Positions 39,345 to 62,866 of a DNA stretch of 64,000 bases are shown one piece after another. The notes below the pieces were generated by a model. The model was not told the origin of the DNA. It worked only from the letters and a program-made list of their open reading frames with translations, and searched no databases. The stretch lies in IMG/VR virus record IMGVR_UViG_3300031952_000001, positions 62,001 through 126,000 of that record, one strand, 5' to 3'. A program made the position numbers and the translations under genes. The stretch comes from a virus. Position 1 is the stretch's first letter. Each line of letters opens with the position of its first letter.

Positions 39345-39713
39345 GGGCCGGAAAGGTTTCGACAGCGGATGTGACGGTGTTCACTGCGTGTACCGCTTGT
39401 AAGTCAGCGGTTTAAAACGACTTTCAACAGACAAATGCCGATGCAGATGTCATCCCCTTCCCGAAGATGGCCGTTCCGTCGCTCCAGCGAGAGGCGGCTT
39501 AGGGAACGTCGGACGTGCGAGGTGCTCGTAACTCGCACGGCCGGCGCAATTCGAGACGAGCAACCCACGGTTTGACAGGTCGCACCGAGAAGCAGCCTGG
39601 ACCCTGGGAGTGCAGTCGTGCGGCACTCTCTGAGACCTTCAGCGCGACCACACACGTAACGAAGTGAACGCTCGACTCTACTGGACGGGGTTTCGATACC
39701 CCCCGGTCCACCA
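39345..39713 (+). ncRNA. ssrA: tmRNA (transfer-messenger RNA)
   Basis: 369 nt. The 5' end GGGCCGGAAAGGTTTCGACAG has the tRNA-like D-domain signature. The 3' end has a T-loop (TTTCGATA), an acceptor strand complementary to the 5' end (GGGCCG with CGGTCC), and an encoded CCA at 39711-39713. A tag reading frame fits 39437-39499 followed by TAG, starting GCC GAT GCA GAT and ending with codons for R-E-A-A. This gives a 21-residue degradation tag if GCC 39437 is the resume codon, by analogy to actinobacterial tmRNAs. It should rescue stalled ribosomes and tag the products. Internal pseudoknots were not modelled. Confidence 0.9.
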
Positions 39714-52722: not shown

Positions 52723-52750
52723 TTGACAGCGCCTCCCAGGTGGTTACATT
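52723..52750 (+). promoter_or_regulatory. Family promoter for a non-coding transcript
   Basis: TTGACA-N16-TACATT with GGT before TACATT. No start codon with an open frame follows within 160 nt; a terminator does. Confidence 0.85.
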
Positions 52751-52756
52751 TAACAC

Positions 52757-52916
52757 TGAACGGAGCGCAGAGACATCACGCTCCAACAGGACCAGGGCAC
52801 CTGTTCAGAATGCCCTAAGGGCTTCGGCCCTGTCACTGAGGAGGCCGGAATAGTCACCCGGCCACTACCCTCGGCCCCTGGCGGTGTTCTCCTTGTCGCC
52901 GCCGGGGGCCATTTTT
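52757..52916 (+). ncRNA. Candidate structured small RNA
   Basis: Between a strong promoter and a strong terminator, about 160 nt, with no credible reading frame. Hairpins in order: GGAGCG/CGCTCC (52762-52784), AACAGG/CCTGTT (52785-52805), AGGGC-TTCG-GCCCT (52818-52831, with a UUCG loop), GGCCGG/CCGGCC (52843-52863), then the terminator stem. The 5' end is estimated from the promoter. I recognise no known RNA family. Confidence 0.65.
52873..52916 (+). terminator. Strong rho-independent terminator
   Basis: GGCCCCTGGCGG (52873-52884) pairs with CCGCCGGGGGCC (52899-52910) over 12 bp with one G-T, followed by ATTTTT. Confidence 0.88.
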
Positions 52917-52935
52917 ATGAATCCAAAGTCCGATG

Positions 52936-52944
52936 TGGTATAAA
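52936..52944 (+). promoter_or_regulatory. Extended -10, possibly leaderless start
   Basis: TG-G-TATAAA; transcription would begin close to ATG 52951. Confidence 0.4.
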
Positions 52945-52950
52945 AAGGCC

Positions 52951-53430
52951 ATGCGCGGCATCCCCCCAGAAGGTTTCGTCCGTCTCGCCAGGTTCGTGGC
53001 GCAGCTCGACGAACAGCTCTCGATAGAGTGGACGTCGCCGGATCTCTCCGACGAGGTGGATGAGTACACAGAGAACCCTTGGAACCAGGTGTACATGAAA
53101 GGCAGGGGGATCGAGCTGGGGAGCGCCGACGAGGTGATCGAGTTCCTGAGCACCGGAGCCATGACCCCATTCTCCGCTGATCAGCTCCCCCAAGTCGAGA
53201 ACGTGACCTTGGGTGGGGAAGCCTTTGCCTCTGAGATAGAAGATCCTGGATACCGGGAGTCCTTCGACTCGATGGAGGAGGAGCTGTCGACGAAGGGGTC
53301 CATCACCCTCCCGGCTCCGATCCTGTTGAAGCTCGGGGGTGCCTACTACTGCTTTGCGGGAAACCGGCGGATCAACCTGGCCTTCAAGTATGATCTCCCC
53401 TTGGAGGTCTGGCTCGTTGAGGTTCCATGA
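52951..53430 (+). CDS. ParB-like-domain protein with the shared N-terminal motif
   Basis: 159 residues from ATG 52951; ATG 52933 (six residues longer) is possible but has no ribosome site. Begins MRGIPPEGFVRLARFVAQ (shared motif). The last 60 residues read SITLPAPILLKLGGAYYCFA, then GNRRINLAFKYDLPLEVWLV, a ParB-like nuclease/CTPase-type fold with the G-N-R-R turn. It is about 14 kb from the other motif-bearing genes. Confidence 0.62.
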   Translation: MRGIPPEGFVRLARFVAQLDEQLSIEWTSPDLSDEVDEYTENPWNQVYMKGRGIELGSADEVIEFLSTGAMTPFSADQLPQVENVTLGGEAFASEIEDPGYRESFDSMEEELSTKGSITLPAPILLKLGGAYYCFAGNRRINLAFKYDLPLEVWLVEVP

Positions 53431-53612
53431 ACCGCGAGGATGATGATCCCACTCGTCCGATTACGTTAATCCCCAGACCCCGCTGCGCCAAGCCTCCAGA
53501 GTCCCCCTGCGCCTTCAAGGACGAGGAGGGGTTCTGCTCTAAAAGATATACCACTTGCCGATGGAAAGCTCTCTCGAACCCTCCATCTAGGTCGAAACGC
53601 GATCAATCCTGA
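53427..53612 (+). CDS. Small Pro/Cys-containing protein
   Basis: 61 residues, ATGA overlap with the previous gene. Four Cys (RCAKPPESPCAF; GFCSKRYTTCRW). Unknown. Last plus-strand gene before the minus-strand block. Confidence 0.55.
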   Translation: MNREDDDPTRPITLIPRPRCAKPPESPCAFKDEEGFCSKRYTTCRWKALSNPPSRSKRDQS

Positions 53613-55770: not shown

Positions 55771-55992
55771 CTACTCCTCGTCCTCGTGATTGTCGCCGTA
55801 GCGGTCCTCATCGTATTCATCGTCATCGGGACCCTCATCGTCATCGGGACCCTCATCGTCATCGGGACCCTCATCGTCATCGGGACCCTCATCGTCATCG
55901 GGACCCTCATCGTCATCGGGACCCTCATCGTCATCGGGGCCCTCATCGTCATCGGGGCCCTCATCGTCATCGGGACGTTTGTAGATGTCCAT
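55771..55992 (-). CDS. Extremely acidic repeat protein (PDDDEG repeats)
   Basis: 73 residues. Eight exact P-D-D-D-E-G repeats plus a ninth partial, then an acidic tail (DRYGDNHEDEE). Encoded by 18-bp tandem repeats. Charge density is close to that of known DNA-mimic proteins, but the repeat is simpler; it may instead expand and shrink by slippage. First gene behind the promoter at 56040-56067. Confidence 0.62.
   Translation of the reverse strand: MDIYKRPDDDEGPDDDEGPDDDEGPDDDEGPDDDEGPDDDEGPDDDEGPDDDEGPDDDEYDEDRYGDNHEDEE
55821..55978. repeat. 18-bp tandem repeat, about nine copies
   Basis: Unit CGTCATCGGGACCCTCAT (plus-strand reading), eight full copies and one partial. The seventh and eighth copies have GGGGCC in place of GGGACC. 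No spacers, so not a CRISPR. Confidence 0.92.
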
Positions 55993-56039
55993 GATCTTCT
56001 CCTTGTTCAGCGAGGGTCAGCTCGCTTCTCCTACTTGGG

Positions 56040-57518: not shown

Positions 57519-57794
57519 CTACCTCACCGCGTTGCCGGTCTTCGTGAACCGGACCTTCTCCAGAGCCACGAGCACGTCTCCCAGCTCCCGCCGGGCCATC
57601 TCCATGACGCGGATCGCCTCGGCTACCTGCGCCTCGTCGGTCGCGCCCTCGTCGAACGTGTCCTTGACCTCCCGGGCGATGAAGAGTGCCAGCGTGTCCC
57701 CCAGGCTGCCCTCGTCGCCTTCCTCGAAGGACGCCTTCACCAGCCCGTCCGGGTATCCCTCGTCCACGATCTCGATCAGCTTGTTCAGGTCCAT
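57519..57794 (-). CDS. Hypothetical acidic protein
   Basis: 91 residues. Helical acidic (EAQVAEAIRVMEMARRELGD). Directly downstream of the promoter at 57844-57871. Unknown. Confidence 0.6.
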   Translation of the reverse strand: MDLNKLIEIVDEGYPDGLVKASFEEGDEGSLGDTLALFIAREVKDTFDEGATDEAQVAEAIRVMEMARRELGDVLVALEKVRFTKTGNAVR

Positions 57795-57843
57795 GTTCGT
57801 CTCCTTGTTCAGTGCGAGTAGTCACCCCGCATTTCCTTCTACC

Positions 57844-61252: not shown

Positions 61253-61705
61253 CTAGGCCCCCTTCTCGACCGGCTTTCCGACCAGACAATCCCATGTCTC
61301 GGAGTTGCAGACGAGGTACTCGATGTGCTCCTCCATGACCTCTTCGTAAAGCCTCTGCGCCTCTTCGGGGTCGTCTGCCTTGGGGCGCGGCTCGACCGTG
61401 TAGGGGTGCCCCTTGATCCTGCCGTCGAAGTATTCGACGCGCGGCTCCTCGCGGTTCGCTTCCCGGAGGTACTCGTCCACCGCTTCCAGCTCTTCGTCGG
61501 TCAGGTCGCGCGTCGTGGTGAACGTGTGGCCGATGTAGTAGCACTCCTTGTTCGCTTGGAACGAGCAAATATGCACGTCCAGGTTCGCGTCGAAGAGGTG
61601 CGCCGAGAAGATCCGGTCCACACCGTCCGGGATGCCGTTGTAGAACTCCGTCTCATCGTCGATGAAGATCCGCAGATCCATCGGGATTTTCGTCTTCTCG
61701 TCCAT
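61253..61705 (-). CDS. Hypothetical protein
   Basis: 150 residues. Mixed alpha/beta (MDLRIFIDDETEFYNGIPDG; ECYYIGHTFTTTRDLTDEEL). Ends next to the preceding gene start. Unknown. Confidence 0.62.
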   Translation of the reverse strand: MDEKTKIPMDLRIFIDDETEFYNGIPDGVDRIFSAHLFDANLDVHICSFQANKECYYIGHTFTTTRDLTDEELEAVDEYLREANREEPRVEYFDGRIKGHPYTVEPRPKADDPEEAQRLYEEVMEEHIEYLVCNSETWDCLVGKPVEKGA

Positions 61706-61752
61706 CGGGTTCTCCTTGTCGTTGCCGGCGGGTAGTCATCCCGCCTATCCCC

Positions 61753-62541: not shown

Positions 62542-62760
62542 CTAGTCGTCCTCGTCGTCGAGGGGGGAGAGCTGACCGACGATCTCTGCGATCCAACGCA
62601 GACCCCCATTATCCGCGAGATATTCGAATTGCCCCTCGGGGCCGCTGTTGTTGATCGTCGCAGCCTCTTCGTTTTTGAGATCGCGCACGTACTCGTCGAG
62701 CGCGCCCTCGGATAGTTTCAGAGCCCGCTGTCGCAGAGCTTCTTTTCTGTCGTTGTTCAT
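62542..62760 (-). CDS. Hypothetical small protein
   Basis: 72 residues; AAGGAGAAGACG upstream. Helical basic start (DRKEALRQRALKLSEGALDE), acidic end. First gene behind the minus promoter at 62806-62833. Confidence 0.6.
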   Translation of the reverse strand: MNNDRKEALRQRALKLSEGALDEYVRDLKNEEAATINNSGPEGQFEYLADNGGLRWIAEIVGQLSPLDDEDD

Positions 62761-62805
62761 CGTCTTCTCCTTGTTGTGAGTCGGGTAGTCATCCCGCCTT
62801 GCCCC

Positions 62806-62833
62806 AATGTAACACAGGCAAATCGGCGGTCAA
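62806..62833 (-). promoter_or_regulatory. Divergent family promoter (minus)
   Basis: TTGACC-N16-TACATT; its -35 lies 5 nt from the -35 of the plus-strand promoter. Confidence 0.8.
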
Positions 62834-62838
62834 GGGGC

Positions 62839-62866
62839 TTGACTCTCTTTTCCCGGTGGTTACATT
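62839..62866 (+). promoter_or_regulatory. Divergent family promoter (plus)
   Basis: TTGACT-N16-TACATT, GGT before TACATT. Confidence 0.87.

Follow-up and report, generated by a model that had tools for sequence, protein, structure and literature searches.

The transcription unit at positions 52723–52916 consists of a promoter, about 155–160 nt of structured non-coding RNA and a terminator. The window, by which we mean the whole stretch of 64,000 nucleotides that was analysed, covers bases 62001–126000 of a record of 211,982 bases (a 212-kb phage), and positions are those of the window unless the genome is named. The parts of the unit, and the reading frame that comes after it, are the following.

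52723..52750, plus strand: phage promoter TTGACA-N16-TACATT, one of 28 near-identical promoters in the genome
52755..52758, plus strand: predicted transcription start, placed from the promoter position, 5–8 nt past the −10 hexamer
52762..52784, plus strand: hairpin 1, stem GGAGCG/CGCUCC, loop CAGAGACAUCA (folding)
52785..52816, plus strand: H-type pseudoknot, S1 AACAGG/CCUGUU, S2 AGGGCA/UGCCCU, L1 3 nt, L2 0, L3 5 nt (pattern scan and energy sums)
52818..52831, plus strand: hairpin 3, AGGGC-UUCG-GCCCU, with a tetraloop (folding)
52838..52872, plus strand: hairpin 4, inner stem GGCCGG/CCGGCC, outer stem GAGG/CCUC, 9-nt loop AAUAGUCAC (folding)
52873..52916, plus strand: intrinsic terminator, 14 pairs including two G-U, 10-nt loop, then A and TTTTT (terminator scan)
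52887..52896, plus strand: terminator loop UUCUCCUUGU, the proposed targeting loop, exact complement of ACAAGGAGAA (sequence match)
52933..53430, plus strand: downstream ORF of 165 aa without a clear ribosome-binding site (RBS), the gene that an attenuator would control

The record encodes a terminase, a DNA polymerase, helicases, one tmRNA and two tRNAs, its G+C content is 60%, and it comes from a large tailed phage that has no close relative among sequenced ones. The phage-borne tmRNA lies at 39345–39713 (Rfam, 82.3 bits) and has an unusual predicted tag, ADADVIPFPKMAVPSLQREAA; the genes for tRNA-Met (40193) and tRNA-Pro (41030) are found near it. The record opens with 1321 bases (L008:1-1321) that recur, at 88% identity, in a stretch whose end is close to the record's final base (in the last 1.4 kb, L016), and these ends are a diverged terminal duplication, not an exact terminal repeat.

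Searches with blastn and with a DNA pattern gave no homologues of the RNA in phages, plasmids, viral contigs or bacterial genomes, and the neighbouring genes led to no syntenic relatives in IMG/VR or GTDB. With the terminase as query three short fragments of kin phages came up, from which the region of the RNA is absent, and the promoter pattern led to one further viral contig, the resemblance being one of promoter length alone. No known RNA family in Rfam 15 scored above its gathering cut-off. We rejected sX13 (E 2.9, 13.9 bits as compared to a cut-off of 50), and also matches to T4-like rIIB, where 27 nt around the UUCG hairpin agree by chance (E 2). All tests reported here rest on one sequence.

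The promoter and its class

Exact sites of the form TTGAC(15–18)TACATT occur 13 times in the window, as compared to 0.00 expected from dinucleotide shuffles, and 28 times genome-wide. The sequence common to the members exceeds the hexamers, as they also share TTGACAGCC...TGGTTACATT, and the promoters are therefore a class of the phage's own. The majority lie at 117–131 kb of the genome, here termed the early region, and we infer the early timing of the class from its sigma-70-like sequence. A second promoter-like class, for instance TTGACTTC...TGACTATATT and TTGACTATACCTTG, is seen at 153–183 kb of the genome (L013, L014), and these are perhaps middle or late promoters.

The distance from the −10 hexamer to the start codon is 7–49 nt in 26 of the 28 promoters of the first class, as compared to 182 nt at the unit. 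The 161 nt downstream of the unit's promoter are also the only structured ones (z −5.2), the values at the other promoters ranging from −1.0 to +1.8. It had been proposed in the initial annotation that the element is deliberately transcribed from an early promoter of its own, and the promoter class, the terminator and the structured transcript make a good case for this. The unit would be an independent non-coding transcript with its own promoter and intrinsic terminator, which is a defining property of trans-acting base-pairing sRNAs.

It was also possible to observe a second promoter of the class with a long gap, at window-relative 68932+ (genome 130932, L012:4932), 137 nt ahead of the next predicted start codon; the stretch after it is unstructured (z 0.44). 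At 62806–62866 two promoters of the class stand back to back on opposite strands with their −35 hexamers 5 nt apart, and the early genes diverge there.

Structure of the RNA and its terminator

No plausible plus-strand ORF lies within 52757–52916, as had been stated, and two short plus-strand ORFs (31 and 37 aa) begin upstream of the transcription start. The whole RNA folds with a minimum free energy of −78.7 kcal/mol (z −4.64), and none of 200 dinucleotide shuffles was as stable. Four clean hairpins, one of them with a UUCG loop, had been described in the RNA. The UUCG hairpin was found again, but the middle hairpins hold an H-type pseudoknot that had been missed, AACAGG-ACC-AGGGCA-CCUGUU-CAGAA-UGCCCU, in which the 6+6 base pairs are perfect. 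Pseudoknots with two 6-bp stems turn up in 0.25% of shuffles of the RNA. Summing nearest-neighbour energies under a fixed pseudoknot penalty, with the stacks of the second stem added by hand, gave −18 to −21 kcal/mol for the pseudoknot as compared to −17.5 kcal/mol for the best nested fold, and by these sums it would be as stable as that fold or more so.

The terminator is real, and the 12 bp first ascribed to it are the best part of a stem of 14 pairs with two G-U. It is the top-scoring intrinsic terminator in the 212-kb record, 36.0 as compared to 26.1 for the runner-up, and for this reason it has to be regarded as unusual for the phage and not as background. Its loop is unpaired and costs 0.38 kcal/mol to open.

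The terminator loop and the early ribosome-binding sites

The complement of the terminator loop, ACAAGGAGAA, serves as the RBS in four of the phage's early genes, and three further genes match at 9 of 10 positions. It occurs 8 times in the genome, as compared to 0.41 expected: one copy is the one opposite the terminator loop, four are ribosome-binding sites, all of them in the early region, and three are elsewhere and not at gene starts. The predicted targets are listed here.

55997..56006, minus strand: RBS of early ORF 55771-55992, 10/10
57800..57808, minus strand: RBS of early ORF 57519-57794, 9/10
61710..61719, minus strand: RBS of early ORF 61253-61705, 10/10, or 18/20 with flanks
62765..62774, minus strand: RBS of early ORF 62542-62760, 10/10
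67574+ (window-relative, 3.6 kb past the window): RBS of the gene at this position, 10/10

The extended duplex with the RBS of ORF 61253-61705 reaches −22.6 kcal/mol in its central part, the extension falling within the terminator stem. The predicted target proteins are small and unassigned. The protein of ORF 55771-55992 is very acidic and consists mostly of nine PDDDE repeats, and one could speculate that it mimics DNA or RNA.

The match was compared with several kinds of chance expectation. When the RNA was dinucleotide-shuffled 20,000 times, a 10-mer complementary to at least four ribosome-binding sites was present in 30 of the shuffles (0.15%). When the AAGGAG core was given, random flanks matched equally well with P = 0.0019, and 2 of 840 permutations of the loop, the real one included, equalled the match. 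The seven best duplexes between the loop and ribosome-binding sites have a mean of −14.3 kcal/mol, as compared to −12.5 kcal/mol for permuted loops, none of 200 reaching the real value. The sites themselves appear to be accessible, six RBSs with ACAAGGAGA costing 0.5–2.9 kcal/mol to open as compared to a median of 5.0 kcal/mol in a sample of genes. In favour of the match, ACAAGGAGA is also the most frequent 9-mer across all 288 predicted ribosome-binding regions. As the match was noticed after looking, these P values are post hoc. It is likewise to be kept in mind that the gene starts are those of our own simple, crude gene finder, and that the leaders of the targets resemble duplicates of each other, so that the matches would not be independent events. 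The anti-Shine-Dalgarno tail of 16S rRNA, which resembles the loop, pairs at −12 kcal/mol or better with 45 gene starts, as compared to 23 for the loop, and part of the match is therefore what any CU-rich loop gives. With this taken into account, the RNA would carry an accessible seed complementary to translation-initiation regions of its predicted targets beyond chance (P about 0.002, post hoc). Among the roles that had been suggested for the element it is thus regulation that gains support, from the fit of the terminator loop to the phage's own early ribosome-binding sites.

A small hairpin stands just upstream of an ACAAGGAGA(A) RBS in the early leaders at 56067-, 57871-, 61780- and 62833- and at L012:3500-3580; in many other early leaders the site is GAACAACCGGGAGG-like. 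The loop of the leader hairpin is UGACUA in three target leaders, and it is complemented by UAGUCA at 52851–52856, in the loop of hairpin 4. Two per cent of random loops match a 6-mer shared in this way. Relative to the first contact this second one runs in parallel and not in antiparallel order, which is feasible solely as two kissing contacts, and we count it as a hint because of this order.

Possible functions and comparison with known systems

We propose, tentatively and with slightly less than even confidence, that the unit is a trans-acting antisense RNA blocking the translation of a subset of early genes. The promoter, the absence of an ORF, the structure, the terminator, the accessibility of the loop and its exact complementarity were computed, and the mechanism built on them, in which transcription during infection, pairing in vivo, repression and timing are inferred steps, is conceivable as follows. 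A free-standing sRNA of about 160 nt would be made from the early promoter class and ended by the intrinsic terminator. Its 5' part, with the hairpin, the pseudoknot and the UUCG hairpin, is probably a body for stability or protein binding. The 10-nt loop UUCUCCUUGU would pair with the ACAAGGAGA(A) RBS of ORFs 55771-, 57519-, 61253-, 62542- and 67574+, and this pairing would block binding of the 30S subunit, so that the early proteins of the target genes are damped as the RNA accumulates. The RNA would be a delayed brake, since its promoter is of the same class as those of its targets.

The chief rival is a rather unlikely but serious one, namely that ORF 52933-53430 has the RNA as its 5' leader and that a ligand, a protein or the pseudoknot sets termination against read-through. 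The unit had been placed at the end of a plus-strand operon, and it does not lie at the very end, as ORFs 52933-53430 and 53427-53612 come after it. Attenuation must be weighed because the ATG of the first of these is only 16 nt past the end of the T-run, and no promoter-like site of the known class lies between. Furthermore, the pseudoknot strand AACAGGACCAGGG pairs at 10 of 13 positions with the terminator arm CCCTGGCGGTGTT, which implies that pseudoknot and antiterminator would be mutually exclusive. However, pairing of the terminator arm with upstream sequence reaches −19.8 kcal/mol at best, which is matched by shuffles (477 of 1000) and is far weaker than the terminator at −31.5 kcal/mol. 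There is no leader peptide and no match to a riboswitch or leader family in Rfam, and the lack of a clear RBS in ORF 52933 would be odd in a regulated early gene.

A structured RNA acting on proteins, which would bind or sequester a factor of the host or the phage as a decoy, an anti-defence RNA or a scaffold and be recognised by its pseudoknot, we regard as unlikely. The compact pseudoknot and UUCG hairpin, the strong excess stability and the early promoter of its own would all suit such a role, but it gives no account of the match between loop and RBS, and no Rfam family was found at E <= 10 save the weak sX13. Two roles suggested in the initial annotation are left unsupported, namely a decoy that draws off an RNA-binding protein or a polymerase of the host, and an inhibitor of a defence system: Rfam gave no match to 6S RNA, CRISPR repeats or any other family, and tandem repeats like those of type III antitoxins are absent.

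It is also conceivable, but improbable, that the loop mimics the 3' tail of 16S rRNA and that the RNA is a general anti-Shine-Dalgarno RNA, with a broad damping effect or acting mainly on host mRNAs and not on a phage regulon. CUCCUU is common to the loop and the 16S tail, and the 23 gene starts paired by the loop point in the same direction, but the flanking bases of the loop fit the ACAAGGAGAA class beyond the core, with the P value for random flanks given above.

A type III toxin-antitoxin locus, with a pseudoknot RNA as antitoxin, a terminator and a toxin gene of about 165 aa, is very improbable: the order of promoter, pseudoknot RNA, terminator and 165-aa ORF agrees with it, and the unit is like ToxI in that an H-type pseudoknot RNA precedes a terminator and an ORF (PMC5086642), but the tandem antitoxin repeats, a defining feature of such loci (PMC5086642), were looked for before the terminator and none was found, and ORF 52933 has no toxin match, ToxN/CptN/TenpN-like endoribonucleases included, by sequence in PADLOC, Pfam, NCBIfam or PDB sequences. 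Its predicted structure (pLDDT 38) is too poor for use.

A trans-acting antisense RNA is thus the reading that we prefer, and as its seed and target sites are predicted it is directly testable by reporters. The systems that the phage RNA would work most like are LhrC and OxyS. The LhrC sRNAs of Listeria monocytogenes have three CU-rich sites, one of them the terminator loop, which bind the RBS region of lapB and impede translation (PMC4132741), and the phage RNA would be similar in setting a CU-rich terminator loop against a ribosome-binding region. LhrC is however bacterial, present in five copies and has three redundant CU motifs, whereas the phage RNA has one copy, one main loop and a pseudoknot; a sequence relation between the two was judged by Rfam alone. 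OxyS of E. coli makes two kissing contacts on the fhlA mRNA, one of them covering the ribosome-binding site (PMC2946933), and here the likeness would be that loops of the sRNA kiss two sites, one at the ribosome-binding site. The contacts of OxyS are in the leader and the coding region, whereas the proposed second contact of the phage RNA lies within the leader, with a parallel order, and the evidence for it is weak.

As such an RNA, the unit would be an orphan addition to the phage base-pairing sRNAs, an already known kind. In one review (PMC12197685), most of the phage sRNAs with known roles belong to temperate phages, and what they act on are lysogeny decisions or host mRNAs; they include lambda PreS and OOP, and VpdS of VP882, which acts on phage and host mRNAs alike. 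The unit resembles these, as they are described there, in being a small regulatory RNA encoded by a phage. They belong to temperate phages, whereas the unit is in no Rfam family and its phage is without a close sequenced relative.

The widest interpretation, which we put forward as doubtful but worth considering, is that the pseudoknotted sRNA does as an RNA what RegA does in T4: its terminator loop, possibly together with the second loop, would silence an early regulon that shares the leader with the hairpin and ACAAGGAGAA, and would thereby provide a built-in early shut-off. RegA and the ribosome compete for about 30 mRNAs (PMC3014915), and the likeness lies in a phage factor which, at the initiation region, represses a set of early and middle mRNAs of its own phage. 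RegA is a protein, whereas the repressor proposed here is an RNA. If true, this would imply that the shut-off of early genes, for which T4 has the RegA protein, can be achieved by an RNA, and in a large phage.
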